This document shows, one piece after another, positions 19,394 to 50,400 of a stretch of 64,000 nucleotides of DNA (positions within the stretch are counted from its first letter, which is position 1; each line of letters starts with the position of its first letter). Under the pieces are notes generated by a model, which did no database searches, was not told the origin of the DNA, and saw nothing but the letters and a program-made list of their open reading frames with translations. The stretch comes from Owenia fusiformis. Its lineage: Eukaryota; Annelida; Polychaeta; Sabellida; Oweniidae. The stretch lies in assembly GCA_903813345.2 (NCBI GenBank), contig CAIIXF020000003.1, positions 21,776,931 through 21,840,930 on the forward strand, in the 5' to 3' direction. Position numbers and translations under genes: made by a program.

Positions 19394-22300
19394 GTAAGAT
19401 TATGAGTAAGTCATTAGTCTTTAAGAGGGATGGAGCTACACGTTTTTTGGAGAACGTGAACGTTTGCTATTATAACCGTCAGAGATTATCATCTCTTTCT
19501 AAATACAGAGTCCAAAAAGAACTACTTCCCAGCTAGTTAAGTACATGATGTGGAAAGTAGTCCCCCGGGAACCATACTTTTTATGTTCAACGTTCACGTT
19601 CCTCAAAGCAATGCTAGCTTAAGGTAGTTTCGCACGATGCCAAATTAAATCGCCCCGAAATACATTAACCTCCATATCAATTAGTTGACGTTGAACTCGT
19701 TTCCAATTCCTGGTTAATACTGTTTTTATGGTTGTGTCTGAATTCAAAATTTCCGGAATAAATCCAAATGGTGTATTTATTAGCTTGGTTGAACTCACAA
19801 ATCAATATTGAAAACGATTAAGTAAAAGGATTAACGATTTGATTATCATTGATTTCCCAAAGATTCATTCTCCCACAACAACATTTATCTCCTTCCTTTA
19901 TTCATTACTACCTATAAAATGAGAATAAGTCATGAGACACTGTCAGGCAAATCGAAAGTCGGGAAACGACCGGTCGCAGCTAAAAAAACAAAAATTGTGA
20001 TCGGCTGTCTTGTTATTGCAGCTCTTGAAATAAAGCTCTCTGAATGGACGCCGATCGGTCTAGTCAGTGTCTTAGTTACTATTTTCATTATTTTTCCATC
20101 CATTATCATTCAACGTCGCGCCATTGAAATATCTTCCTCTCATTACTTTACGGCATTGTGGTATGTTTTCGCACTTCATTCGACAATGACTGATTATGGT
20201 TTGTCAGGTAAACTATATCTGGGAACAATGAGACGGTGATTTAACACCAGGTAGACCTTACTTAGGTAGCAAAAACACAATGGAATGAACTGGCTGAGAA
20301 TGATGTACATTACAACACTATCAAAATGTATACGTTTGGGTCTGGGAGAGGTTTAATGCAAACTGTGTCGCTATAGAATGAATTCCCTCACTATTTTTGC
20401 AAGTTGGTCGACGTCAGGTGCACGCATGTACGTATGGACATAAGTGAAAACCCAACATGACTTTGTTTTAAAAATGTCAGGCATTTAAATTCAAAAATGT
20501 CATTTGCTTATTAAACGAGCACTCTTGTTATCCGCACCGAGTTTTTTTGGAGGCACAGTCTACATAGGGTGTAATTGATAATCAACTAGTCCAGGTCAAG
20601 GTCAATACGACAGTAACTGTTATAGGGTCGGTGTTGCGGGGGGGGGGGGGTGTTTATAATCTTAACGTTTATGTGACAAATGTATTATATTGTAGCAAAA
20701 CACACATTCTGACGGTGTGTTTTTGAAGAGTTTGCACATGAAAAGTTGAAAATGCATGAAGTGAATACATTAATTACATAAAGGTGATCACATCATTTTG
20801 GTTGTAACACTTTTGAAAGTAAACATTCTTCTTCAAATTATGAACTTTAGGAGCTTTAGGAGCCCTTTCAGTATTTTTCGTTATTTCAGGAGTTCTCAAA
20901 ATATAGTGGCGTTGATGCCTATGTGATCGTCTATTCAGTGGCTGACAAGTCGAGCTTCAAGCAAACGAAAGAACACACAAAGTTTATACGAAAACATATC
21001 TCCAGGGAAATGCCCATCATCATAGTTGGGAACAAGAGCGACATAGTCCGCCAGAGACAAATTACACCTGAAGGTAACGTATTTTTGTATATACTAATTT
21101 CAATCCGTCAGAGACAAATTAGACTTGTTGGTAAGGTTAACCCCTCTTAGTTGAACAACTTGAGATGTCCCTTTGGACATCCTTGCTGCAAGGGTATTTT
21201 ACAAGTATATATTTGAGCATAAATGAAGTCCTTTGAAGAAGGATGCCTTTGGATCGCGTGTTAAAGGCTTTTTATATAAGACGATTAAAAATATCTTCAA
21301 AGTCATTTTCCGAATGTTTGTAATTAACCCTACTATCACACCAAACTAGTTCTCACTACGTTCCCGAAAACGGGCTTTAACTGTGTACGAACGGACTGGA
21401 CCTACTGAGAACCATTTGGGATCTATTTACAAACTTCATCGAATGTACTCGAACGGGTAGGTCCTCTAGAACTTAGACAATGCTCAAAATGTTCTCGTGG
21501 TCGTGACGTTCTACAATTAGAACGAGTGACAATTCTAACGACGAGCTGGACGTACTACGAACGGAACCGTCGTACTTCAATCCTACTAAGGACGTTTTAA
21601 CAACGAGTTGAACTATCTGAGGACGTGTTGAGAACGAGGTAGAACTAATTGCAAACGGGTTTAAACTGATTAAGAACGTATTTAACACTGCTTATGAACG
21701 AGTTAGCAAAAATGTAGCTATCACACCAAACAAGTTGCCACTGCGTTCTTCAAAACTGGTTTTTAACTGTGTGCGAACGGAATAAACGTAGCTCTATTCC
21801 TACCATAGAAAACCCTTTAACTGGAACTACCTGTTTGACCAGTCAGGAGAAAGCTACTGAATTTCAAAAATATTTCTCTAACATGTATCACTTAGAACCA
21901 GATGCATTGAATAATGATATTCATTTTCCTGACAGATGCAATAACAAATTAGAGAACATTTACTTTGACCAACAGGAAATTATCTCTATAATTAAGGATC
22001 TTGACCCCTCAAAAGCAAATGGTCCAGATGGAGTTACAATAAAAATGCTCCAGCTATGCAGGAATACTATTTCTGTGCCACTTAATTTACTTTTTCATAA
22101 AATTTTGACCACAGGTAATTTTCCCCAGAACTGGAAATTAGGGGATATCTGCCCAATATTTAAAAAGAATAATAAGAATGACATAAGAAATTATAGACCT
22201 ATATCTCTTCTCAGTATTACTTCCAAAATATTAGAGCGAATTGTCTACTCTAAGATGTACGAACATTTAATTGAAAATAACTTATTGTATAAATACCAGT

Positions 22301-25300
22301 CCGGTTTTTTGAAAGGGCACAGCAATGAGTTACAACTGTTAGCCATCCAAAACCTAATTTGGCGCAATTTTAGCGACGGCAATGATACACGTGCAATTTT
22401 TTTGGATATTTCGGCCGCGTTTGACCGTGTCCCCCATTACCTTCTTCTAAAAAAGTTGAAAGCGTATGGATTTTCAGGAAACTTATTAGTTTTTCTAAAA
22501 TCTTATTTGACTGATAGGAGTGTCAAAGTAACTGTGAATGGCAAATGTTCTGACACCTCTCCTAGCAACTACATAAACTGTTCTGTGCCTCAGGGAAGTA
22601 TTCTCGGACCTTTGATGTTTCTCCTCTATATAAACGACTTACCGGACAACCTGACCTCAGAGTGCTTTATTTACGCAGACGACACCTCCCTCTTTGTACC
22701 TACTTCCCCAAACAATCCGCAGTCTCATATACAAATTCAAAATGATCTAAAAAAAATCGAAGCCTGGTCTAAACAGTGGAAACTAGATTTTAAACCAGAA
22801 AAGAGCAGAGAAATGACCTTTTCTAAGAAAAATAATCCAATCTATCCACCAGTTATCTTAAATGATAAACAAATTGAAAAAACTGACATTCATAAACACC
22901 TAGGCCTCATTTTTGATAAAAAATTAAGTGGGTCAGCACATATAAATTCTATCTGTGCAAAAATCCAAACAGCTCTTAACCCCTTAAAAGCACTTAAGGG
23001 TAGACTAAAATCAAAACAATTAAATATTCTCTATACAGCTTATATTCAGTCCTTATTTGATTATTGTGATATCCTTTACGACTGTGCTCCTATTTGTGAC
23101 CTTAACAGACTTGACAGTCTCCAGTACCAAGCTGGTCTAATAGTCTCTGGTGCTCTCCCAGGCTCCAGCACTTCCAAAGTACTTAACATTTTGAACTGGT
23201 CCACCTTAACTGAGAGGAGGATCCTTCACTTTAAAACAATTATGTACAAAGCCGTGAACGATCTAACACCTATTTATATCTCAGATATATTTAGGCCATT
23301 CATAAACCCTCAAGCAAGATTGTTAAGGAAATCTCGAGATTTCACTATCCCTATTCACTATCCACATAAGTCTCCAATATACAAAATGATGAACCTATGG
23401 AATGATCCAGGATCTGTTCCCTTGGAACAAAAGCTCTTGCCAACTATTGCATCTTTTAAAAGAACACTTAAATTAAATTTGTTCCCTGGTGTTGTTTCAA
23501 CAATTTGTTTAAAATTAACTCGTCAACAAGAACTTTATCTGAATAGAGCCAGGGTAGATTTAATTTTAAAAGCCCAGCTCAAAGCCCACAATTGGAGCTC
23601 AGTTGAGTCATCAAATTGTTTATGTGGTTCCCCTGAAACTTTTCCCCACTTCTTTTTCAAATGCCCTCTGAAAGAACAACAAAGAAATAAATTAATAACA
23701 GATACTTTAGGGATATATGGGGACTTATTAACTCATTTCAGAACTCAGCAAGACAAAATTCACTTTTTTCTTTTTGGGGATCCATCATTAACCCAATTAG
23801 AAATGGATAATCTATTTTCACTGGTTGCGAATTATCTCATTGAAAACACAACCAGAATCTAAATATTTTCCTGCCTATGACCTGTTTCCATTTTTCAACA
23901 TACTACCCCTCCCCCAGGATATCAGCAGCCCTCCTATCTTTTGTTTCATTGCAAGGCATTCTACCATTTACAGGTGACATCCAGGTTAAAATGAATATTG
24001 TACTTTATTGTTTAATTATATAAGGGGACATCTAATGCTTACAGCGCTTTGCCCTTTGTAATTGTATCTAAATGACTTGTGCTTACAATAAATATGAAAG
24101 ATGATAAAAAAAAAATAAACGTAGCTGCAACTTTCTAAGGTCTATTTACGAACTTTATGAACGTTCTCAGACGGGAATGTGATTTTAGAATTTTGAATCG
24201 ATTCAAAATTCGATGGCGACCATACCGTTCTGTAATCAGGTCATGTTGACCTTCTAGACTAAGAGACGCGTTCTACTACGTTGCGCACCGACGTGGTGCG
24301 ACCTGAACGAACTGCGAACGAGATGGACGTATTGAAGACTGTTTAAGAACGAAGAAGCTAATTATTTCAGACGTATTTTCCGATCACAGCCAGATTGAGC
24401 CCGTTTTACGACGTTTTCGTAGGACTGGCAAGAACTTGTAAGAACTAGTTTGGTGTGATAGGGGGGGGGGGGGGGGGTAAGGAAAAAAATTAAACATCAG
24501 ACATTGACAGGATTTGATATTCATTGTCCAATTAAAATTTCCGGTTTCCAAACCTATGGAGGGGAGTGTAGTACGCTAAAGACACATAACCCTTAAAAGG
24601 CATTACGTAAAGTCTGCCAGAGACGTTATCTTATTGTCTGCATTGTTTTCCCTTCCAGTTTTTAAGGTAGGAGTTTAAAATGCAGAGGCTTGCGATGCAA
24701 TAGTACTATATGATTCCTTAGTTCTACTGTTTTTACTACCCTTGATTGCTACTACGGCCCAGCTGTAGTGGCTTAAGCCTTTATAGCTCAGTAGGGCATC
24801 GGTCTTTGGAGCCAGGGGTTCTGGGCTCGATTCCCACACAGGGCATTGTATTTAGCACACTTTATTTCAATATCTTTATCTGGCTTGTTACACTATGCTC
24901 GTTAGTTAGCCATTCCCCTTGGTTGCCATCGGGTCATTACACTATATATCGCCGAATCTCGCTAATAAACTCCTAAAATGCATAAATATATCATCATCGA
25001 TTTCATTGTCTAGGCACCAATGGATTTGGTTTGACGTTTGTTGTGATTTGTATAAATAAAAAGTAGACATTTGGGAAGGTACTTCTTGTTTCTACAAATG
25101 AGCTTTTACTTCTTGCAATTTTCTTCTGACAATGACTCGTCTGAAGTAAAAAATGGTGCATCTTGAAATGAAAGTATCTTCTAATGGCTCATGAAACCAA
25201 GTTAGCAATTTCACTGTTTGGCATTGTATTACAATGTTAAATCGGCAATCACCAAAGCAACACTAAGTAAGTTGTAAAACGCATCCACGACAACGTGTTT

Positions 25301-28300: not shown

Positions 28301-31300
28301 GCAAACAAATCAAACTCGACTTATTGATATTCCTTTGGCGGATGGTTATACATATTCGACAGTTCGGCAAGTATGTTAAATCGCCGTTTTATCCCTGGAG
28401 AAGGTAGATCGATGTAAAAACAAACCCCATGTCATCCAGGTTGCTGAGAAATAGCAGTTTGGCAATTTATTCTTTATCATCTCATCTCCAAGGAACTGTA
28501 AAAAATGATTAGCTTTTTATGACCTTGCCTTTTTGCTCAGTATCAATTGCGAAAGGAATTTGTCACTGTTAAAACTGATCATTTATTTTGGATATTACCG
28601 TCTCTAATACTCTCGTAATCAGAACTTGACACACTGCGTTAATGGGGTCTTTTACAGTGTACATTATCTATCTTGTGCTGGCTTGGGTTGACCTGCAACG
28701 GATAGAGCCATTTTTCTTTTAAGGGGACCTTTAATTTTTCATCCAATATGCCATCACTTTACTTGAAGAATCCCAAAGCAGACAAAAATAGCAGCAGATC
28801 AGATATCAATCTTAGCTTGTATTCTTAGCTTGTATTGTTGCGAATGCAACTAACGGCTATCGGCTACTAGATTAGCCTATCAATTTGCAGTTGCTTTTAA
28901 TATTTAAATGGGTTTGACATCTAATTGCAATCAAACCGGTAGCCGGTAACCGCTATTTGCATTCGCGGATACAAGCTCACATTATAATGTTTAATGTATT
29001 TTTAGCTTTTCGAAAATGTCAAAGAAAATATTTGAATCTAAAGAGGATAAAAATCTATATTAGAATTATGTGTTTAATTTTTCATATGAAAAAAAGTTCT
29101 TCATCTTCGGTTCCAACTACAGTTGAACGAAAATACGTTTCAAAGTGTAATCGTGCATGGAAACACATACTTCATCGATTTACAAAGTTGCTAGGTTAAT
29201 TACTCAGATGCGAGTAGATTGTTACCAGTTTCGCCACCAGGTGGCTGATTCGGGGGAAATAACATGGCAGGGTACTACAAAATTCCCTTAAACTTGAATA
29301 TTCAGCAGTTTTAGTGGTTCACATTTCATATTACCCTTATGTATCTTATAGTTATACAAATTAAAATATGTCCAGTAAAAGAAAATATTATCTGCCCAAC
29401 ACAAGAAGAGATATTTCCATTTTTGTGATTTTACAACATGGGGGCTATGGGGAATCTCCCCGACCTAGAAGTCACATTTTCAAAGAAAATTAAATTTTCA
29501 AAGTTGATAAACTCTTTTCAAAACCATATTTCTAGATGTGATTTTACATGTAGCTTCCAAATATGACATCAGTTTGACTGAATTTTGAAATTTTAATGAC
29601 GTAAATCAAGATTATTTCTACTCGCATCTAGGATATTGTCTCAATATCTTTTTTGCTGTTACTGTGAGAGTCACAATATCTCTTATACCGTCATACTAAC
29701 TGTAATAGTAGTCAATATTTCTCATGCCGTCTTACTGTAAGTGTCTCAATTTATACCATGCCGTCCTACTGATATTGTCCGTTAATATCTTCATTGCCGG
29801 TATCTTTGAGGGTCACTCTTATTCCGTCATATTGATAGTACTCAATATTTCTCTTGCCACCCGACTGAAAAAAACGTCCTACGTAGTACTCAATATTTCC
29901 CACGCCGTCCTGCTGTTCAACTTATATTATGCCTCGATATCTTTCATGCCGTCTCACTGTCTTTCAAAGTCTGAAACATGACTTATCTTTTTTCCTTTTC
30001 AGGATAACTAATACGTTGACGTCATATTACCGTATTTACGGTATTGGACATACAGTTTAGAGCAATTACCATTATTGTTATTAAATGACTTTTTACAATA
30101 CAACTGCGTGGAGATGTTAATGAATAAACCTGACGATTGTAACAATTTGTTTGCTAATAAGTAGGAAGCCATGTTTTGTGTCAGCAAGTAGCTCCTGATG
30201 GAACCCTATGAGTCGACGTCAAAACTTTATATTAATGATTATTGTGTAACAGATCTAATGTTTTCACAATGATTTGATTGTTTGGCATTTATACCATAAA
30301 TCCTGTCTGGATCCTTTTTCAACTATAAAAACGGAACTGAAGCGCTACAAAACAAACGTGTAACAAATCGTATATAGGAGAAACCTCAAGACGTTTGAAA
30401 GTTAGAATTGAAGAACATAAGATAGAATCGAAGCAGATTCGAGGGACAATTCACGTTACACGCGCCAAGCAAAAGAAAATATGAGAGGGGTGGTGACTAA
30501 ATTAGCCATTATACGGACCACGTCCTTCAGAATAATTGTCCAAATTTCCGCCAATTTATAGTTCCCTTGATCCCTGTTCATATTATTATCGTTCTTCTTT
30601 ATAAAAATAGATTCTTTAATCCATCTTTCAAGTCTCTCATTGTTATTGTCCAAAACTGTAGTATTGTTCCAGTCCATTACACAATTATTCTGAAGGACGT
30701 GGTCCGTAATGGCTAATTTAGTCGCTTGGTGCGTGTAACGTGAATTGTATCTCGAATCTTCTATCTTATGTTCTTCAATTCTAACTTTCAAAGGTCTTGA
30801 GGTTTCTCTTATATACGATTTGTTACACGTTTTGCAAGGTACCTCATAAATGACTCCTGATTTATCATTAATGTCTATTTTGTCTTTAGGGTGGACTAAC
30901 ATATTTTTCAGAGTCATGTAGGGTTTCACTGCTGCTTTAATTTCATGTTCTATAAAAATTCTCTGGAGTTTCTCCGTCGCACCTTTGAAATACGGTAACA
31001 CTACAGTTCCTAACGGCTTTTCCTCTTCATCTTGATTGACCCTACGTTTTACATTTTTCATTGTTTAGGAAACGGTCCATTGGGCATGGGGATATCCACA
31101 ATTTCCCAACGCCTTTTTGATATGTTCAATTTCAAATAAAGGTTGTGAAAAGAAGAAAAAATAGTTTTGTGATTTAATAATCCAACCTGAAGAACACGTT
31201 TTAGGATATTGTAACCGTTGTAACTCATCTATTTTCTTTTTTTTGTGATTCCAGATGGTAAGAACGCCGCAACTCAACTTGATTGTAAGTTTATAGAGAC

Positions 31301-33718: not shown

Positions 33719-34173
33719 CTGAAAGGACCAAGCATGTTATTTTATACAACAAAATCATTACAACTAGCTGCGAGGAAAATAATTATGTGCCCATCAGTGG
33801 GGTATCATTTCATAACAATTTCCGGCAAATTGCAGTCTAAATTACAGTTATTCTGTTTTTTCTTTGTTTTGTGGAAATAACCATTGGTAAAAAAAACTAA
33901 TATTGCCTTCGGCTAAGATAATACAAGTTATACTAGTTACATTGCAAGGAGAATTATGAATGGAATACTAAGTGTATCGACGGCAAATATAACTTTTCTT
34001 TCATATTAATTGATTCAGTTTTCTCGAAACGAATTTTCATTTCTCTTCATACTAAACTATCAGATCAAATTGAAAAATAGCTCTGGGGATAAAGGCAAAG
34101 CGAGCAACTCGTAATACAGCTCGTGTTTAAGTGCAAGAAGGTGATATTCACATTGAAGAGTACACACAATGAC

Positions 34174-35906: not shown

Positions 35907-36679
35907 CTATAATGTTTCAATTTTAACGTGTGAGACACTGTAGTTTGACTTAGCACTCTTGGCAGTTACACTACTATCAGTGCGTTCCCTTACGTTAATA
36001 ATACTGCTTGGCGTATCCTCCTTTGCCTTTGGTTTGTCCGACGACACTCTGGGGCTAATCTCTGCATTGGGATCAGTTTTATCCTTTGTGAATGCATGAT
36101 TTATGGTGCCCTTTACACCATCACTGGGTTTATCAGATTCTTTGCCAAGCGCAAGCGCAGCAAGTTTGAGAGTTTCATCTGTGCTTGGAATGTCTTTTGA
36201 TTCATCACTATTTGTATTTTGGTTATTGTCTTTCTTTTGATCATTAGGCTTAGCCATGTTTAATCCCTTAAATACTCCTCCATTTTTTTGACTAGAGGTC
36301 TTTGACTTTCCGAAACCCATTTTAGATTTCTCTCTAAGCTTATTCGCCCATGCTCCCGCTATCTTCTTAGCCTCACGTTCCTTCTCTTCTTTTGATTTTT
36401 CAATCTCCAGTTTGAACGCTTCAGTTCCGAGTTGAGTGGCACGCATTGTTTTTCGAAGCATCTCTTTAGTGTGTTCACTCATGTCACTGACGTCGTCGCG
36501 GTTAGCCTCGCGCTTGGTGTGGCTAAACTCCACACATCTAGCCACACCAACTGCACACAGTGCAACGCTTGTAAGGAGGACTATAGAGATTACAGATGCC
36601 GGGACATAAAGACTCAAATTGAACGCCTCTGCCTCTGTTACTGTGTTAGCTGCAGTCGTTGTAGGGGACACAGTTGTAC
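35907..36679 (-). CDS. membrane protein exon 2 (TM helix and cytoplasmic tail)
   Basis: A long open exon after a clear acceptor. The first two bases complete the Gly codon split by the intron. The stop is at 35907-35909. Confidence 0.78.
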
Positions 36680-37296
36680 CTGAAATAACAACTTAGATCA
36701 TACAAATGTGCCCATTTATGATCATAGAAGTAATATCAAAAGAAATTATGGTCCTGGGAATAATGTTAATTGTTAATTGTTTGACGCGGACTGAAAGTTA
36801 AAATTGTAAGATGTAATAAGGTCGCTTAATGAATATCAGTGCAGATGGGGACAATTAGTATATGGCCACGACCAGCTTGCATAACATTGTTGATGGCACG
36901 AATAAAAAATATGAAACCTTATAATGTCTTTACATCATCCCTGCGTTTATGGTCTGAAATAGTGAACCGATCGAGAACCGAAAGTACATCTCGATGAAAC
37001 TTAAGGTGAGACAACTTCGGGACATGGCTGTACATGAAACCAGTATAAGGCTGCAGTGTGCAAGTTAAATGTTCTACCATGTCCACCTTGATATTATGGT
37101 GACGATGAATCATTCCAAAAGTTGTTTATCTATATGGGTCTAACTTCATGGTCATATTTTTGCTTACGATTGCCAAAGACTTACCATTTGTCGCCTGTCC
37201 ATAAACCAGCTCAAGACATGTTCCAAGGACTGCGGAATATATCATCCAATGTAATGATATACTTCCTTTTATAACGATCATATCCAAAGTCGCCAT
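35907..37296 (-). CDS. unrecognised single-pass membrane protein, two exons
   Basis: Exon 1 is 37296-37185 and exon 2 is 36679-35907; joined length 885 bases, 294 residues plus stop. The donor is CAAATG|GTAAGT, the acceptor TGTTATTTCAG|GT, and both are phase 1. The ATG at 37296 has A at -3 and G at +4. Residues ~10-33 are a signal-peptide-like hydrophobic stretch. A short Thr-rich ectodomain with an NLS glycosylation site follows, then one transmembrane helix at ~61-84 (LYVPASVISIVLLTSVALCA). The ~210-residue tail is charged: a Lys/Glu-rich, likely helical region at ~104-163 (LEIEKSKEEKEREAKK), then Ser/Lys-rich disordered sequence. It resembles a type I membrane adaptor, but I recognise no family. 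It lies about 1 kb beyond the channel gene's stop on the same strand. Confidence 0.75.
37185..37296 (-). CDS. membrane protein exon 1 (signal peptide)
   Basis: Encodes 37 residues plus one base: MATLDMIVIKGSISLHW, then a hydrophobic stretch ending VYGQATN. The consensus donor GTAAGT starts at 37184. Confidence 0.7.
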
Positions 37297-37786
37297 TGTT
37301 ATTTTGTATTTTGTCAATCCTTCAAGTATTTGCCCTAATGTTTCTCTATCTTTAAATCATATCTCTTTTTATTTCATCAAGGTATTTCTGACATTATTAC
37401 AGGTATTATTCATACCTTTTATCAAGGAATAACTCACATTTACCCAAGTTTAACTCATTTTGAATGTTCTAAATGTTATTCAGTGTCCGCCATATTTTGT
37501 AGCCAAATAAACTAATGTTTAATCTCTTTATACGGCATATACAAGGTCGTACCAAAGTTTCTAAAGAGCTCTTTGAGTATATTTCCTTAATCAAATAATT
37601 GCGATTAAACCTTCACAAAGCTTTGAGACTGTTCAAAGAATACTCGAGCCTAAGCTGCTTAAGTTCCCTAGCTACCTCCATCACAAGTCTAATTGTTCTC
37701 AATGCCTACGCATGTGCAATGCATTGTACGTATTACGTACATATGTAAATACTAAATGCACAACCGTCGATAAACAAGTAAAGAAT

Positions 37787-38000
37787 CAGGCCCGTAGGCA
37801 GGATTTGCAAAGGGGGGGGGGGACAGTTTTCAAAAATTTCCGGGGGGTTCACATTTGACAATTTTGGCCCAAATATGGCTAGACTCACTTGAGAAGTGCT
37901 CAAAATGGTGAAAAACTGCATGATTTTGAAAGAATTTTTGGCCCGGAGGGGGGGGGGGTCGCCCGAACCCTGCAACCCCCCACCCCTGGCTACGGGCCTG
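37787..38000. mobile_element. MITE, CGTAGCCAGGA-ended family, copy 2
   Basis: Perfect ends CAGGCCCGTAG and CTACGGGCCTG (37787-37797, 37990-38000). The interior matches copy 1 (8265-8416) with two long G-runs added (about 37808 and 37942). It lies between the membrane-protein gene and the channel stop codon. Confidence 0.85.
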
Positions 38001-38340
38001 AGAACAATACATTTCTCATTATGTTTAATGAGCTAATTGTAAAGTAATGTTAAAACACTGATACAACTCTAGCCTACTTTATAGTAATGGTAAATGTATT
38101 TCAAAAGTTTGTTCCAGTGTTTCATTTAAACCATTATGGACAGGGTGGTCTAGCTAACTATACATACTCGGTATGTTCTGGCACATTTTAATTAAAATAC
38201 AATTACAATTGAGCAACTCAGTTGGAAACGATACCATACAAAACGTCCATATATACATAAATGTTCTAATAAGTGCTTTTTAAATATTCTGTACAAAATT
38301 AACGAATGTCAGATTGTAATAGTAAATAGCGTTAGCGTCA

Positions 38341-38430
38341 TTATAGATGGGTGTGTTCTTCACGTTTTTCCATAGCAGGTGGCGACACAGGAGCGTTTTC
38401 TGCATCTGTATATTGAACGTACCCGTGGGG
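38341..38430 (-). CDS. channel exon 9 (C-terminus)
   Basis: Acceptor TTTACTTTCAG; encodes PHGYVQYTDAENAPVSPPAM then EKREEHTHL and TAA. Phase 0 joins exon 8 across a 5.9-kb intron that is mostly the giant foldback element. No homology anchors this tail, so it rests on splice sites, phase and composition. Confidence 0.68.
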   Translation of the reverse strand, partial: PHGYVQYTDAENAPVSPPAMEKREEHTHL

Positions 38431-41400
38431 CTGAAAGTAAATTGGATTGGGTTGTCATTCACAAAACAAAAATACAGCAAGAGTCCGTATGTATATCAAT
38501 GTGCCATCTATATTCTATATTCGAAAGTAATTTGTTTTAGGAACCTAGAGGTATAACCTCTACATCTTTGTTTATCTAAATGTTATTGAATTAGTTTTAC
38601 ACTCATATTTTCTTGATTTGGGAATCGAGGATTGGACGGAGGGGTCGATCTTTCAAGAAATTATTTCTTCCTAAATACTGTAAGTATGGGCTTTCGAGAG
38701 CTGCTGAAATACCACGGTGGTATTTAATTCGAGTAGTTAGTTTGCAGAATGGTCTTTTATCATTTTCCTAATTTTGATTTTCATAATGACAAGAAACTTC
38801 CCATTGGATAACATTATGATTATATTTCCGACATTTGATTTTTGCGAAATTGGCAGAAATTAGGCAATCTAGGCAAATTAAATGATTCAATTGAATTACC
38901 CCTAGGCCTTATACAGTATATACTGGCGTTTCAAATGACCAGCAGTCTTTAATAGGTATAACGATTGTGGATAACATTTTACTTATAGCGGGATCAGATG
39001 TCCAGATATAACCCCTTTTTTGTTCGGCTTTTTCAGGAAAGCAACAAACTTGGCACATTTGTAGAAACATTTGATTTGAGTGGAAAATGATTTCAGGGCA
39101 AGTGGTTGGGGGTGGTCTTCATGGATTTTTTACCTCTGACCCCCACCCCTATCAGGTGGGGAGGGGTAAATTATAGAAAATAAATAAAAATGGTTTTAAA
39201 GTATTTTTGTTTAAATGACTTCATTTGGTGATTGCTTTGAGCCTTGAAATGATGTAAAACTCATTTTAGAAGTGGTATTTAGTGAGGAAAATACATTTAA
39301 ACCCAATTATCCAGGAAAAAAATTCACAGTAATAGAAGTATAAGTGTTTATTGCAGATAGAAGATATTGCTTTGGTAGCTGATGTATTCTCAGAGAAAAA
39401 AAAATATCGAAATTTCAATTTTTGGTGCATTTGGCTCAGGGGTAACCTTATCTTACCTCAATAATTTTTAAGATAGTCAATGTATGCATCTCATATGAGC
39501 TAAGAATGGTGCTTCTAGTCTTGTTTTGTCATATTATTGCTAATTAGATGTACAAAAAAGATTGCAATCAAAAAAAAATTCAAATTTTCATTTTCGTTTC
39601 TGAATGGCCATATTGTACCTTAATAATTTTCAAAATACGAGGGTTGTCCCAGAAGTAATGCACTATATGCTCTAACTTTATCAATAATTTATATTTTTCC
39701 ATGAAATTTTCAGTAAATGTTCCTTAGAGACATTTTGATTATTCTACAAACTTTCATGTTGACTGATAAAACTATATTGATGTTATAATAAAATCAAGTT
39801 GGTGAGTTTGGGTAGGGCGGGGCCGGTTATACAGTCACGTCAAAAGAAATAAAAAATTGAAAATATGAAATAATCAATCAACAAATACAATTTGGTGTAG
39901 CTATAAGAAGTATGCTCAAAAATACATTTTAAGATACTAAATTACTATGAGCACATCCTAGATTTAATGGATGTATATTGCACAGTGTCCCATTTCACAT
40001 TTTCTCAAAATATTGCCCTTTGCATGTTATGTACTTTTGATGCCTGTCAGGTCAAACTCCCTCGGCAATTTCTTCCACTGTGACTTGTGGAGTTTTTGCC
40101 TCCCATGTTTGGAGTTGTCATACAGGGTCAAATCGTCTCTTTTATATCTCTTCTGCCACCCCATAATTGTAGTTCTATCTGGTATATACTCCTTATATAC
40201 TTTCTTCATGGTAGCATTGTTTTGCGTGGCTGTGAGTCCAAGTGAAGTATGGAATTAGGCCACCAAACGCAAGGCCTTCTGTTATCAGGTGAGAATTGCA
40301 GCCATTTTTGCAATTTCTTGACCGTGACTGTATTTGAATTCGTGACTATTGAAATGTGGTATTATGACATCACAGTGTTAAATGTCATTATTCGTACTTG
40401 GTTAACATCATGCTGAATAAATTTAACAATTTCCCAAACATTTTGACCATTTAGAGGAAAGAAATATTAATAAAATAACACTTAAGATCTTTTCATAATT
40501 AGAAAAATTGGTACCTGCCCCACCCACCCCTACCCCCATGTTGCTATAGCAACCATATAAAGACTTAATATTAATGTTGGATGCTGAAACTTCAGGATGT
40601 AATAGATAAAACTTAAGTTGTTATCTACACAAAATTTCAGCTGAATTGAAGAATATTAAAGAAAGTTAGAGCATATAGTGCATTACTTCTGGGACAACCC
40701 TCGTATGTAATATATCCATCTCAAATGAGCTCAAAATGGTGCATCTAGTCTTGTTTTGTCATAATATTGCTAATTAGAAGTAAAAAAAGATCGCTCCTGA
40801 AGGGCCAGGGGTAACCATATTGTACCTTAATAATTTTTAAAATATGTAATATATCCATCTCAAATGAGCTCAATATGGTGCATCTAGTCTTTTTTTAATC
40901 ATATTAACCCTAATAAGATGTAGAAAAATGATTGATAATTCTTAAAACTCTAAATTTTCATTTAAGCTTCAGATGGTCCAGGGGTAACCATATTTTAGCA
41001 TAATAATTTTCAAGATATGTAATATATGCATCTCAAATGAGCTCAAAATGGTGCATATAGTCTTGTTTTATCATATCCAAAATAAGATGTAGAAAAATTA
41101 TTGGACATTTCTTAAAAATCTGAATTTTCTATTTGACCATATTTTTAACATAATAATTACATATTATTACATATGCATCTAAAATGAGCTCAAAATGGTT
41201 CATATATCAGAAGTCTTGTTATCATATTTCCCCTAATAATATATAAAAACATACCCTTTGCATTCGTTTGACTTCACTTCTTAAAAGAGAGCTTCGTCTT
41301 CACTCACTCTTTCAAACTAAAAGAAACCTGTGAACTCACCGCGCCAATCAGTGTTCGTCGGCCAAATTTGACCGACGTTCTTTATATGGTCATTCCTTCT

Positions 41401-44400
41401 GACGTCATCGTTGAGCCCGGAATTGACCAATGACATGCGCATATTTAATTAGAATGCATTTGTCGTATGTTTCTTCAAGCTCGCTGATTGGTGGAAGGTC
41501 AGCGCGTAGGTGATTTACCCAAACTGTCACCGGTACCCGTCGTGGGGGCGGGGCTACTAAACTGTAATATGGTCTCTACTAGGCAGAGTGTAGTTTAACT
41601 AGACTCTGCACGCAGGGTAATAAAAACATAATTTGACATTTCTAAATATCTAATATCTAAAAATCTAAATTTTATATTTGAGCTTTTGACAGCCCAGGGG
41701 TAACCATACTTTAGATAATAATTTTCAATGTATGTTACATGTATGCATCTCAAATGAGCTTGAAATGGTGTATATAATCTTTTTTTGTCATATCAATATC
41801 ATGCACAGATAGTTATTGAATGGATTTTTTTTAACCAAATGCAATCCAAGATGTAGTGGGAACAAGAGGGAGCTGTCCTCCTTCCAGGCATCAACACTAA
41901 AACCCTCAAGAACATGGCAAGATGATAGTGACCAAGTAATGCAATGTCTTAGGCGCCATCAAGGATATTTCTCCATACGAGAGACTGCTTCAATCATTGC
42001 CTAACAATTGATTTTGATGTAGTAAAACTGAAAATGTCAATTTGGATTGCATATGGTAAGGGGAAATCCTTCCAATATCTACCTGCCCACAATATTACAA
42101 GACCAAAGTTTAGCCCTCCCAATTTTTCATGCAATCAATGGATTTGATATGTCACCTTTGCATTCTACTACTTCTCTAAATCATCTGATTTGAAGGAATG
42201 GAAGGTGTATACCCAGAGCTATTGCAGTTGTTTTTAAACTTTGAATCTTTTTTTAGAAACATTGCAGTTGTAGAGTCATTTGTTATTCTGATGCATTCTA
42301 ACCCACAGTTTCTATCACCACATGAATGTGGTTGGACTACTCCCACTGCTGATACTGAGGCCACAACATATGAAAATGTAGGTCCTATGAGGCGGATATC
42401 TGTATAATAACAAAAGATGTTGCATCCGAGGCATGCAAAAAACTTGTTTGATGTTTAAGGAGTGTTGAGGGAACATATGCAAATGTTTGAAATCATATCT
42501 CATTTGCTCTGGGCTATGTAGCCGTAGGGGAGACTGTCAGAATCTATAAATCCTGACCTGTTTGATTATGTTTTATGGATTTGGATTATATTTTCAAATG
42601 ATTATACATGGAATCTTAACAATGCTACTACTCAGTACAAACTGGACTGTCAAACATTTTCAAATCTTAGAAAAGTGCTCGATAAAACTAGAGTACAGTA
42701 TTGAGCTAGTGGTACTAAAAAGGAATAAATGGATGTTGTGATTCTTTATATAAATAAATAAATGGATGTTGAGATTTTTTATATATTTTTTATTAATTTT
42801 TTTAATAATTTTTTCTTATTTCAGAAGGAATAAATGGCAAAACTTGACTATAATCAACATTTTGAGCTCGTTTGAGTAACAAGTGTGATATATCTTTATT
42901 TAAATTATTACGGTAAAATGGCATCAAAAGCTAAGGCCGTAAGAATTAGATTCTTTGTTTTGCTTCCCCTTGCTTGCATGATTTTGACTAAATCAGAAAA
43001 AACAAACACATCCAAATAGCAACCACAAGGGTCTGAAAGTAACATCGCATTTCATTCAATCAGAATCAGACGAAATGGCGGATAAATTGATGTGCGTCAA
43101 AATTGACAGTGTTATTGATTACTTACTCATAGGCATACATTTTTTTTATTTTTACCCTTGAATAATACCTATATTTAAATATATTGTGTAAACGTATAGA
43201 TCTGTGTTTGTATCACTGCAAATTGGTATGTCATTCCTTTTAATGCCCATAAAATGTATACATTTCTCAGCAAACAAGTTTTTTTTGAGTTTGTGTTTGT
43301 TTCCTTGTACCCTTGCATGATTTGGATTTTGCCAGGACACAAACCAGAGAATCTAATTCTTATGGCCTAATATGAAAATATCATTTTTCAAGTTTCCAAA
43401 CATTTTTTACATTCCCTAGAAATAATATATGACAAAAGAAGATTAAAAAAACCTTTAAAGCTCATTTGAGATGCATATGTCTTGTACTTTGAAAATTATT
43501 AAGGTAAAATATGGCTACCCATAGGCCACAATAAGCTAAAATGAAAATTTAGATTTTTAAGAAATGTAAAATCATTTTTCTACATCTAATCAAGGGTAAT
43601 CTGATAAAACAAAGCTATATGCACCATTTTGAGCTAATTTGAGATGCATATATTACATATCTTGAAAATTATTAAGGTAAAATATGGTTACCTCTGGCCT
43701 TTTAGAAGCGAAATTGAAAATTTGGATTTTTGAAAAATTTCCAATAATTTTTTTACATCTTATTAGGAATAATATGACAAAACAATGCTCTATGCATCAT
43801 TTTGACCTCATATGAGATGCATACATTGCATATTTTAAACATTATTAAGGTAAAATAAGGTTACCCCTGAGCTGCATGCACTTAAAAATTGAAATTTCGA
43901 GAATTTTTTTTTCAAAAAATACATGAGCCATCCGTGATATATTTTCTATCTGAATTTTTTCAGGACTATCAGACATCACATTCTTGAAATACAGTACTGG
44001 ATGTTCCGTATTTGGCCCTTTAAACAACGAATTATTCTTAGATAATTGGGTTTAAAATGAGTTTTTCTTGCTACAGACAACTTCTTAATTGGGTTTTACA
44101 CAATTTCAAGGCTCAAAGCAATCACCAAATGAAGTCATTTCAAGAAAAATACTTTAAAACCATTTTTATTTAATTTTAATAATATACCCCTCCCAGTCTG
44201 GTAGGGGTGGGGGGTCAGAGGCTAAAAAATCCATGAAGACCACCCCAAATCACTTGCCCTGAAATCATTTTTTACTCATATCATATGATTCTACAACTGT
44301 GCCAAGTTTGTTGCTTTCCTGAAAAAGCCGAACAAAAAAAGGACATCTGACCCCGCTATTAAGATGTATGCTTACCTTTTGAGGTGCAGCACTTCTTTGC

Positions 44401-47400
44401 CTTCTCTTAAATGTCTGGAAAATAAATCTTAATTAATTCTTCAATCGACAATTCGTATTCTAATTTATTCTGTATGGTAATAACAGTATTTCTAGCTAAG
44501 ATGTTCGAAATTGTATCTGTTGAATATAGACGAACAACCATGGGTTGTTAGATTAAATTATACTATGATACAATATACCCTACTAAATATACATATTGTT
44601 ACACTCCCCTCCAAAAAAAGTTTGGAAACCGGCACTCCATCTTTGGGTCTTAATGCCGATTAATGTAATAAAATCATCAAAGTCACGAACTATTGTACTA
44701 TGAAAAGAACACCATTGAGATCCAATCGATCATTGCCATGCTTTAATAGGCTTTCAACTGAAAACTTGTTGAGGGGAGTGTATCATAGACTATGTTGCTG
44801 ATGATCGTTAACTTACCGCATAGATATATATTGCGAACGTAACATTAAATAGGACAAATATGGAAGCTAGTGTTATAAGTACGATCATGTCCATGAGAGC
44901 CACCTTTGGGTGCTCCAGAAAGAGAGTCACTAGAGCATGCCACACACAGATTAACGCTAATGTTGTGATTCCAAATAACACGTAACGATCCTGAAAAATA
45001 AACATGAGTACTGTTATTTGTTTTTGTTTGTAGTCTCTTAATTTGTTACTTTGCCAAATTATGTCTTCGATACACCCTAATCTATGACATCATCATTCCA
45101 GAAATCGGTAGCGTTCTAAAATAACTTACTAGGTACGTAAGGTATGGTATTTTGGGCAAGTTCTGGCTCACTGCAAACTTGTAGGCGACACACGTTAGGA
45201 GGAGGGTGAACGACAGCTGGAGACGATTTTGTACCAACTTTGGTATAACAGCAAACGTGGAGAACGACAGCGCAGTGATAACGAACTAGAAACATGAAAT
45301 AGATGTTGTCTCAGCCAACCACCTATAAGATCTTATTGATAATTTTAGTGATTGTTTGATTTTACTGTTTCGAAAATTTACTTTAGATTATCCAAACTTT
45401 AAGGGAAACGAAATTTGAGACTATGATTTCGTGAGTGGTTTTTCTCTTCCAATCAAGATTTCGCAAGGTCTGTTGAGACCGAAAACATTCATTTAAGAAC
45501 ATCCAGTGCAGGTTGTAAATTATCTACACGTTAAATGATATCAGAATGTTACTCTTTGTACTTAATCATGCTAAAATGGGAGAAAATGGCCATGGTTCAT
45601 ACCACTTACCGTCACAAAGAAATTATTCCATATGAAGTACTTTGGCCGTCTTGCAGCTTTCATTTTGACAACTAGGGCGGAACGTGTTCGGTGACCATAT
45701 GGGGCGATCGTCTCTTCCACGTCCACGTTACTGTAGAGGTACCACTCCTGGGCATCGGCGAAGTCCGACCTATAGACACTGGAGTACTCGTCCCTGTCTT
45801 GGATGATCTGGACTTCCTCTATACGGTCTGATACAACAGTAACGGCTAGATCCTGGATTGGAGATTTGAGGCATGTTCAAAAAAGGTTCACCATACACGT
45901 TTCAATGAACAATTTTTAAAAAAGATAGTGACGATGTGACATTGTTAAGAATTTAATTCGTGATATTACACTAGGTTTATGTGTCAATGTTGTAGAATTC
46001 ATGAAATTTCAGCGTTCACGGCCCGAGGTTATGCACGTTATAATACAATCAAAGTTTCAGTGCATTTTACGTGGGAAATTCGGCCAAATGGTTGGGGTGA
46101 GAGGAGACTAGGGTAAAAATGCTACCTGTATGTCAAATGGGAACTCCCTCAATTCTAGTGTTTCCATAAACATGCCTCTTGTGCGTCTCTCAAGACGCAT
46201 GTATGCCTCATGGTTTTTGTCTATGGTAAAAGTGTTAGTCTCTGCAACACTAGGTGTCCCTATTGTGTTTGCTATATACAGCTTTGGGTGCCAGTAGTTC
46301 CCCAAATCAACACCCTTGGCATCCTGCAAATGACAAAATACACGTTTGATTTTTTATTCCTCTCTATGAATTTGACGACTCATATTCCCCATGGAACTAC
46401 TGTAATTATATTGCATGGTATTGTATTGTATTGTATTGTATTTTATTGTTTTGTATTGTATTGTATTGTATTGTATTATATTGTATTGTATTGAATGGTA
46501 TTGTATTGTATTGTACTGTATTGTATTGTTTTTTATTATATTGTATTGTATTGAATGGTATTGTATTGCATTGTATTATATTGTATTGTATTGAATGGTA
46601 TTGTAAATGTATTGTATTGTATTGTTTTGTATTATATTGTATTGTATTGTATTGAAGTGTATTATATTGGATTGTTATAAAATGTATTGCATCATATTAC
46701 ATTTAGTATTGCTTCAAGACCCTGATATTGTATTTTGTTGTGTTACATTGTGAATTAATTGTTTTTCATTGTATTTTGTTACATTACAGTACGTGCATTT
46801 TATTTTTCCAGTCTAACTCTTTAGAAATCACAACTATTTCCTTACGAATGTGCAAGACATTCATTAAGGGAAAATATGGTTAGTAGGGGTTAGCTTTCAG
46901 ACGACTTATATCGCCCTTTCAAACCAGTGAACACATTCTACAATTTCACTGTTGACAAAGATGTCACGCTGGAGTGACATGCTTTTTCACAATAATTTGA
47001 TCAGACTCCTATGATTTGATTTGATGATTTGATAATATATTCCAATTTTGTCGTTAAGAATTACTCAATTTCAGCTGGATGATCTGTCAAAATATATATC
47101 GGAGAAAAATGAAGTTTCTCTCGATGCATAGCAAACCAGACATTGTATTCATTTTTAATTTAAGCTGGTATTTGCCAATCAAGAAAACTGCTTTCTGTCG
47201 GTTTCATTAAATTGACTTAACTTGTTAGTTGACTTATCAACACACTCCTTGATGGATTATCGTTTCAACTCGTGTGCAACCAAGAGGTATATATATATAT
47301 ACTAGATATAGTATAGGGGAATAAGAGTCAATAAAATTCGGAAATTATCTCGTGAAAGGCAGAAACAAATCTATAGGGAGTGACAAAATTGCAAGCAATA

Positions 47401-50400
47401 TGTACAATTGATGTACTAATGTATTTCTTACAGGCTCAAATATAATATCTCTCAAAAGATCCGTGGTATGTTTTCAGTTGGTGGAGTTATTTAAGATTCA
47501 AAGTGCAAAAATTTGGGAAAAATATTTAAATTCTCCCAAATAATAAGAATGGTAACCATTCTTATAAATAAATGATTGCATTATTGTAAAAATCAAAGTA
47601 CATATACTTGGGAAAATGATGAGTGTCGTAAGTACAACGGACGAGTATTAAAGTGTACTAAAAAGCATTTGAAGGTGGGAATTGTGAAATCTGTGCGATC
47701 ATAAACATAAAATAAATCAGAAATATTGGACCTACAGGAGCATAAGCTATTTGAACACTTGACGAGAGCCGATTTAACAGGGATATTTTAAGCTAAGTTG
47801 AGTCTGTTATAACTCCCAAGATAATGATAGATACACACTAGTCGGCGATCGTTACGTCGAATTGGTCTCAAAATAGGCGCCTTTAATGAAGCGTGTCACA
47901 TTCAAATAAATTGTTTCTTTTTAGGAAATATTTAGATTAATGTTCAAAATATAGTACACTGCATTGAAAGGAATACCACCCCTTTCCAGTTTTTACTCCT
48001 TGCTGCCTTTTCAAAATACCATCGGGGCCTTAAGAGAGAAAGGTATGTACTGTAGGTATAACGATGAATGACTAAAGAATAAACTGCTGATAATATCTTT
48101 GTTGCTCTTATTCCATATGGTTGATTACCTACTTCGATTTCAAGACCGGTGTAAAAGGGTAGGAGGTCCTATCAAATTATGGTCCTACTTTCCATTGGTT
48201 TAAACTCTTTCACTTATTATCGTATCCACAATCAGGGCCAGTAAGGGCCTTTAAGAAAGGGGACCATAATCACAGGGGACCATAATTTCTTTTACACCGG
48301 GTTCTTAATTTTGACAATTGTTTGTTTGAGCTGTTTTTTCATCCAGTTGAGCTTTTTGACCCAATGCACTGAATCAGTTTGATTACTAGTAATTGATATT
48401 TTGATTCATATGTTGATTGATTGAATAAACAAGTGATTAACGTGTTATCTAAAGATACCTCACCTGCACAAAGTCAAGGGCAGGCTCTCTCCACTTTGCC
48501 TTGACGAGGACCTCTGCCGTGTACTGCTCATGGAGAGTGTCGATCTCTCCTATCTTCACAATCTTCACACATACCTCTACTACCTTTTTCTGCAAGATAG
48601 AAATCATACACATTTACAATATGGCTATAATGATATCAAGGTTATAATATGACATTTACACGTGATACAATGAATGTACTTTCTAATATGAAAAAATAAA
48701 ACTCAATATAAAACAAGTACATTTAATACAACGTCAATAAAGCATTCCACTGGTTAGTACTGTAAAGTAATAGCATCTATCATTAGTGAGATACATTTAT
48801 TTATTCTGAATTGGAAAACGTATTCTTATTTTGAGGTTCCAAACTTCAAGCAAATGCAAACTGCAGCACATGTAAACAACATAATGATGTATAATAGTGT
48901 ACTTCTACTTATTTGGCAACCGGTTTAATTTGGCGAGGACCCCGAATTTGCCAATTGCAGTGGTCACCACTGATTTAAATGGGAAAAATAATTTCCGTGA
49001 ATAGACGCAGTTCTCGTTCGGTGTATCCATTTCTGGCTGTAGAAACTGAAAACGTAAGTCAATAGAGTCAATAATATTTGCTATGGCAACTTTCGCCTTG
49101 CAAACAAACAACACATCTATTCATCCTGTCAAAATTGCCAAAATTAGGCAAGATTAAGTCAATACATCGGTCGACTGTCCAAAGACACAGCTAAACTTTA
49201 GTAATACAAAGGTGAACTGTCCAATGACCCAGCCAATCTGTAATAATACATAGGTCGACTGTCCAACGACACAGCTAATCTGTAATAATACATAGGTCGA
49301 CTGTCCAAAGACACAGCTAAACTGTAATAATACATAGGTCAACTGTCCAATGACACAGCTAATCTGTTATAATACATAGGTCGACTGTCCAATGACACAG
49401 CTAAACTGTAATAATACATAGGTCAACTGTCCAATGACACAGCTAATCTGTTATAATACATAGGTCGACTGTCCAATGACACAGCTAATCTGTAATAATA
49501 CATAGGTCGACTGTCCAATGACACAGCTAATCTGTAATAATACATAGGTCAACTGTCCAATGACACAGTTAATCTGTAATAATACATAGGTCGACTGTCC
49601 AATGACACAGCTAATCTGTAATAATACACAGGTCGATTGTCCAAAGACACAGCTAAAGTGTAGTACAAAGTAACGTATAGTAGCACTTCCTATTCTCCAA
49701 GTTAACTATAAGCACACGCACTTGAGGGATAACATTGATGTAAGTCAGTAACAAAAAAAGAACTCGACTCATTCTAATCCAATCTGAAAATTAACTACCG
49801 TTTCATTTATGTGCATTCGGTAGACTCCTGTCATGGGTTTGAAACTGTCTGGAGGGAACATGATGGCGTTGTTCCTATGCCGCATGTCCGAGCTAGCTGC
49901 TGTTGACAATACCATGCATATAGTTGATACAGTTTACCTCCCGGTCAACAAACACAATTCTCAGATCCTCTTCTTGTAATTTATAGAGTTCTTTAATTTT
50001 GTTAATTTGCAGTTCAATAGTTGAAACGTAAAATAGAATCACGTGTATGCCCTAATATTGTATTTTCGTCGCATGTATTCTTTCATTATTGTTGATATCA
50101 AAACGATATCATATCCATTTAATACATCACCAGAGTTTCTGCTTAAAATTATAATCCGAAATTGCAATTTAATTTCAAATCTTGCTGTAAGCTATACTAT
50201 GTTTGCAATATAATGTTTGACTTTGTTTTGAAGGTCGTTTGCTTACAGTATTGTAAATATGTTGTTATATCGGTATATTCCAAATGTTCATGCGTTGAAC
50301 TTCGATATTTTCGGATATTTTCGAGCACATCATAGTAAACCTCACTCATATATCTAAAGGTTATGCAACAGAACTTTCATAAACTTCTAGCATTCAGAGA

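Follow-up and report, generated by a model that had tools for sequence, protein, structure and literature searches.

A probable invertebrate Cys-less Pro-loop channel subunit with ELIC-like pore residues

Background

Members of the pentameric ligand-gated ion channel (pLGIC) superfamily that lack the two cysteines of the Cys-loop, the Cys-less Pro-loop receptors, were described from invertebrates and protists by Jaiteh et al. 2016 (PMC4795631) and then by Johnson et al. 2023 (PMC9874803). Cys-less channels were found in one cnidarian, one echinoderm, nematodes, flatworms, annelids, molluscs, Branchiostoma and Oikopleura (PMC4795631), and the receptors reported across the two papers include those of annelids, molluscs, flatworms, Branchiostoma, sea urchin and Nematostella (PMC4795631, PMC9874803). 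A clade of these animal channels also takes in protist channels, and for it old descent and lateral transfer were both posed and left undecided by the authors (PMC4795631). Mechanosensory neurons reportedly express the planarian homologues, whose knock-down is said to result in seizure-like movements (PMC9874803, citing Ross et al. 2018). In the available sections of PMC4795631 and in PMC9874803 no agonist of Cys-less animal pLGICs is given and their role is scarcely treated, and no ligand of the clade was reported in the titles and abstract openings searched, which mostly did not cover subscription papers. Here we describe a gene in a 64,000-nucleotide stretch of DNA (the window, in whose coordinates all positions are given) that very probably encodes one subunit of such a Cys-less channel, most likely from an invertebrate animal.

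Like the described Cys-less Pro-loop receptors, as far as their available descriptions go, the window protein has FPxD without flanking cysteines, which are replaced by a polar and a hydrophobic residue; unlike them, compared by description only, it has Gln and Asn at positions -2' and -1' of the pore helix M2, where an acidic residue is 'often' found (PMC9874803). It resembles the bacterial channel ELIC and its gammaproteobacterial relatives in its pore-facing M2 residues, its short linker between membrane helices M3 and M4 and its lack of a Cys-loop disulfide. Unlike ELIC, it has none of ten agonist-site residues, no acidic ring, valine for the proline of M1, a shorter loop C and a gene split by introns; identity to ELIC is 29% in pairwise alignment (261 ELIC residues) and 22.8% in a 28-row alignment. 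GLIC of Gloeobacter has the same architecture and short linker, but is 17.5% identical and has one of five pore-facing residues in common. With the animal Cys-loop receptors (glycine receptor, GlyR; GABA-A receptor; nicotinic acetylcholine receptor, nAChR; 5-HT3 receptor) the window protein shares the superfamily domain, FPxD and the arginine before M1, whereas those receptors have the two cysteines and motifs of the PAR or GEK type, and only 4-5 of 18 M2 residues in common with it. Cys-loop receptors also carry a long M3-M4 domain.

Results

Superfamily membership and gene structure

The gene is read on the minus strand, where seven candidate exons between 49894 and 44376, joined in frame, give 344 residues without a stop. 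Single exons gave weak or no matches to Pfam (exon B on its own matched PF02931 with E 0.0016), and the joined protein passed the cut-off of the ligand-binding domain family Neur_chan_LBD (PF02931; 33.6 bits, cut-off 26, E 3.4e-8). Together with a PDB match to ELIC (E 5e-21), this shows that the channel gene is not a chance assembly. As read from its sequence, the predicted product is a ligand-binding domain with an intact F-P-x-D, a pre-M1 arginine and four membrane helices; the superfamily marks kept are FPFD (for [F/Y]PxD), the pre-M1 arginine (KAARRPKYF) and the M2-M3 proline (NLPKIPY). In known structures the pre-M1 arginine pairs with the Pro-loop. The exons are as follows, where profile E values refer to a pLGIC profile of 28 rows that includes the row of the window protein (the window row).

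Exon A, 49799..49894, minus strand: the N-terminal part preceding beta-1 (SSDMRHRNN...MHINET), whose open frame continues into exon B; 5' edge uncertain.
Exon B, 48464..48589, minus strand: beta-1/beta-2 of the ligand-binding domain; AG/GT borders, phase 0; profile E 3e-10.
Exon C, 46126..46323, minus strand: loop A (YWHPKLYIAN) to the Pro-loop FPFDIQ, with Glu at Cys column 1; AG/GT borders, phase 0; profile E 1e-13.
Exon D, 45610..45852, minus strand: beta-7 to M1, with Leu at Cys column 2; AG/GT borders, phase 0; profile E 3e-13.
Exon E, 45130..45285, minus strand: remaining M1, pore helix M2 (RLQLSFTLLLTCVAYKF) and M2-M3 loop; AG/GT borders, phase 0; profile E 4e-17.
Exon F, 44817..44990, minus strand: M3, a linker of 8-10 residues, and M4 (174 nucleotides, 58 codons); AG/GT borders; profile E 0.0004.
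Exon G (possible), 44376..44414, minus strand: post-M4 tail TFKRRQRSAAPQK, then donor gtaagcat; AG/GT borders and phase 0 only.

The Pro-loop, METLELREFPFDIQDL, contains FPFDIQ, and alignment with GlyR alpha-1, GABA-A beta-3, nAChR alpha-7 and 5-HT3A, all of which have Cys at both Cys-loop columns, placed Glu and Leu there, as an earlier reading of the window from its letters alone (the sequence-only reading) had noted in pointing out a kept FPFDIQ with both flanking cysteines changed. Replacement by a polar and then a hydrophobic residue is typical of bacterial sequences (PMC4795631, section 7), and the Glu/Leu pair matches this pattern. Cysteines occur at residues 39, 253 (in M2) and 288 (in M3) of the joined protein, leaving one extracellular cysteine (residue 39) in the exons found and therefore no Cys-loop disulfide. 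That M3 and M4 share one 58-codon exon with about eight residues between them, as that reading also held, was confirmed: the two helices are joined by 8-10 residues (at the longest EHPKVALMDM), with no cytoplasmic domain between them in the exons found, and a single-sequence AlphaFold2 model of exon F alone contained helices at 2-26 and 28-57 with a mean predicted local distance difference test score of 85.8. With the exons joined in frame and PF02931 passed, its description of an intron-rich Cys-less pLGIC with a bacterial-style short linker holds.

Exons B to F each have an AG acceptor, a GT donor and a length divisible by three, exons A to F run for 331 codons without a stop or frame break, and all six junctions among exons A to G (44414-49799, minus strand) are in phase 0, an uneven distribution. 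Exon A fits the frame, but its donor is weak (gtagttaa, score 0.46), the left edge adopted for it has no AG and the pLGIC profile does not match it. Exon G, for which no homology was found, is doubtful and may not be real. The M4 codons are followed by a GTAAGT donor, and an in-frame TAA lies 6 nucleotides past them; the gene may extend past 44817, given this donor and exon G, and equally the TAA could be the true gene end. No further internal exons were found in 36000-44376 at stricter cut-offs, and the search for an exon 3' of exon G in 38000-44376 gave four open stretches of 36-63 residues, none of them convincing. A second copy of the gene in the window was sought with the profile (window row included), which recovered exons B to F only, the next of 2109 open stretches having E 0.34; tblastn of the joined protein against the window gave, after its own exons, a next match of E 0.14. 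One other loose Pro-loop pattern (33745-33804), considered as a Cys-bearing alternative exon, lacked profile support, and a weak signal-peptide exon candidate (59487-59442) was not accepted.

The introns of the channel gene hold two tandem repeats, one at 46405-46675 (54 copies of ATTGT, 81% matches) and one at 49161-49656 (a 42-base unit repeated 11.8 times, 91% matches).

Relatives in databases

Among the best 60 of 230 matched sequences in the PDB, ELIC entries came first (78 bits, E 5e-21), followed by a GABA-A chimera (45.0 bits), the best glycine receptor (44.8), a protein labelled Neur_chan_LBD protein that we take to be DeCLIC (44.3) and GLIC (about 38). The best bacterial relative found scored 80 bits, with 29% identity over query residues 4-259, and a pattern scan of genome contigs led from 163 matches to one relative, the ELIC orthologue of Dickeya undicola. 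At E 0.001, sampling of the phylum of the Dickeya genome gave relatives in 8 of 398 genomes and sampling of its class, Gammaproteobacteria, in 16 of 369, with the Dickeya genome counted in both samples. No relative was matched among plasmids; in viral contigs, patterns made by back-translation of the protein and of a two-row alignment gave 5 and 235 matches respectively, none of which was a relative by tblastn. In the common alignment identity was highest to the bacterial row L012 (23.4%), followed by 22.8% to the ELIC orthologue (L003), and was 15.9-18.3% to the four Cys-loop receptors.

Pore and ion selectivity

M2 was compared at positions 0'-17' (18 residues) with 27 comparison rows. The ELIC orthologue was identical at 13 of 18 positions, the next best of the 22 bacterial rows at 10, GlyR, GABA-A and 5-HT3A at 5 each, nAChR at 4 and GLIC at 3. 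At positions 2', 6', 9', 13' and 16', of which we take 6' and 13' to be pore-facing, the window protein equals the ELIC orthologue in all five, the only such row of the 27; L012 and L004 agree at four. The remaining three (2', 9' and 16') are pore residues in ELIC, where the resting pore is closed by 16' and 9' and 2' is a narrow polar place when open (PMC12266721). Phe16' is present in 12 of the 22 bacterial rows and is not particular to ELIC.

The window protein has Gln-2' and Asn-1' where ELIC has Ser-Glu, so that the acidic pre-M2 (intermediate) ring is absent, and neither of the pre-M2 motifs tried as a sign of ion selectivity, PAR and GEK, is present. When Glu229 of the equivalent ring is removed, ELIC becomes less selective and small anions can pass (PMC3119659), and with no acid at -2'/-1' the cation selectivity of the window channel should be weaker than that of ELIC. 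Of the 22 bacterial rows, 12 have an acid at -1' or -2' and 10 lack it, and the neutral ring is therefore a feature rather than an oddity.

Ligand site

None of the ten ELIC agonist-site residues named in PMC3119659 (two of which are numbered one lower there) is identical in the window protein, a comparison for which the extracellular alignment is unsure at such low identity. The sequence-only reading had put forward pH and amine ligands for testing; on this comparison an ELIC-type amine response is not predicted, and the channel is probably opened by something other than an ELIC-type primary amine at the ELIC site.

Phylogeny and alternative explanations

Of the bacterial frames L001-L027, 22 entered the 28-row tree, each trimmed to its last 340 residues except L017; L001 and L002, which represent the same gene as L003, were left out, as were the fragments L018, L019 and L024. 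Nine distant bacterial rows were dropped for a 19-row tree and ELIC was dropped for a third. Besides the window row the trees contained bacterial rows and, as the Cys-loop set, four receptors; the support mark of the tree tool is 95/80. Phylogeny had been proposed as a check on whether the gene lies inside the ordinary receptors, and in these trees it fell outside the four that were used: the four Cys-loop receptors grouped without the window row in all three trees, with branch supports of 94/93 (28 rows), 94/89 (19 rows) and 94/93 (ELIC dropped). The test of union was mixed, since forcing the window row together with the four receptors was rejected with 19 rows (p 0.026) and not with 28 (p 0.158). 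The trees thus give moderate support to a window gene that would be primarily Cys-less.

Several results weigh against a primary Cys-less channel as set out above. The supports of the Cys-loop branch all lie just under the mark, the 28-row test leaves union with the Cys-loop receptors standing, and the window row, whose end branch exceeds all others in each tree, shifts next to L005/L006 at 55/53 when ELIC is dropped. No row of the common alignment is more than 23.4% identical to it, no signal-peptide exon was found upstream of exon A at stricter cut-offs, and the acid missing from 10 of the 22 bacterial rows means that the ring alone cannot settle selectivity. In exon D, where the pre-M1 arginine is retained, Val takes the place of the M1 kink proline, which is Pro in all 27 comparison rows; this proline is usual, not obligatory, for the superfamily and is present in 77% of 561 sequences (Table 1 of PMC4795631).

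Secondary loss, in which an anionic or cationic Cys-loop receptor shed its cysteines and cytoplasmic loop, is unlikely. Such loss has been argued for some nematode channels (PMC4795631), and besides the 28-row result for all four receptors, union with the anionic pair (p 0.064, 28 rows) or the cationic pair (p 0.060, 19 rows) is borderline. However, it would require the loss of both cysteines plus the entire M3-M4 domain in a protein that lacks any PAR or GEK pre-M2 signature, that reaches a glycine receptor in the PDB at little more than half the bits of ELIC, that is closer in identity to bacterial rows than to the Cys-loop receptors, and without which those receptors group in every tree.

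Recent acquisition of a bacterial ELIC-type gene followed by intron gain is less probable again, and we regard it as very unlikely. The window row pairs with the ELIC row of Dickeya (90/83 with 28 rows and 83/82 with 19, both under the mark), and the matching pore residues and uneven phase 0 junctions would also fit; but in the 19-row tree the tool flags two long branches meeting at this very pair, the position moves once ELIC is dropped, about 23% identity and four well-supported introns oppose a recent event, and the published Cys-less animal group covers several phyla (PMC4795631, PMC9874803). Because the nearest neighbour changes without ELIC and the end branch is the longest, no donor can be named. 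The least probable account is a decaying pseudogene of a Cys-less channel, which the missing M1 proline and acidic ring and the weak donor of exon A might suggest, but which the unbroken 331 codons of exons A-F and the retained F-P-x-D, pre-M1 arginine and M2-M3 proline argue against.

Neighbouring features

The window also contains the following.

20860-21147, plus strand: Ras-family GTPase exon (PF00071, 46.6 bits), whose closest PDB matches are RAD, REM 1 and GEM (41-46 bits).
21718-23859, plus strand: open frame of 714 codons that contains a reverse transcriptase domain (PF00078, 112.6 bits), which we take to be a LINE-type retroelement.
30459-31064, minus strand: 202-codon frame with no Pfam match at E 0.01, presumably resembling the end of a Penelope-type retroelement.
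35910-36692, minus strand: 261-codon frame with a Thr-rich stretch, one hydrophobic helix and a long charged tail, matching no Pfam family at E 0.01; it shares the strand of the channel gene, lies downstream of it and may belong to that gene or to another.

Discussion

The introns and the retroelement show a eukaryote and the GTPase exon, nearest to RAD, REM and GEM, points to an animal, in keeping with a Cys-less channel gene that would be animal; a protist host is less likely. As far as tested, the gene is a new member of the described Cys-less kind and not a new subfamily: the Cys-less pLGIC subfamily proposed from the sequence-only reading corresponds to a kind already described, the clade having been published in 2016 (PMC4795631) and treated again in 2023 (PMC9874803). 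Its line may have come down from a unicellular ancestor or have been acquired, the two histories also posed in the sequence-only reading.

For such a channel, five subunits would assemble around M2 and ligand would bind between subunits, moving the Pro-loop and the M2-M3 loop; this movement may, as in ELIC, open a hydrophobic gate formed by Phe16' and Leu9', and Gln2' would be the narrow polar ring. A more specific picture, offered tentatively and rather doubtful as a whole, is that of an animal channel from a pre-animal line with an ELIC-like two-gate pore, a neutral ring and a rebuilt agonist site, weakly selective or anion-permeable and opened by a non-amine ligand.

The combination of an ELIC-like pore with a different agonist site and a neutral ring makes this Cys-less gene a useful test case in which the evolution of the pore and that of the ligand site can be viewed apart, and it bears on whether animals retained an ancient line of receptors that lack the disulfide alongside their synaptic ones.

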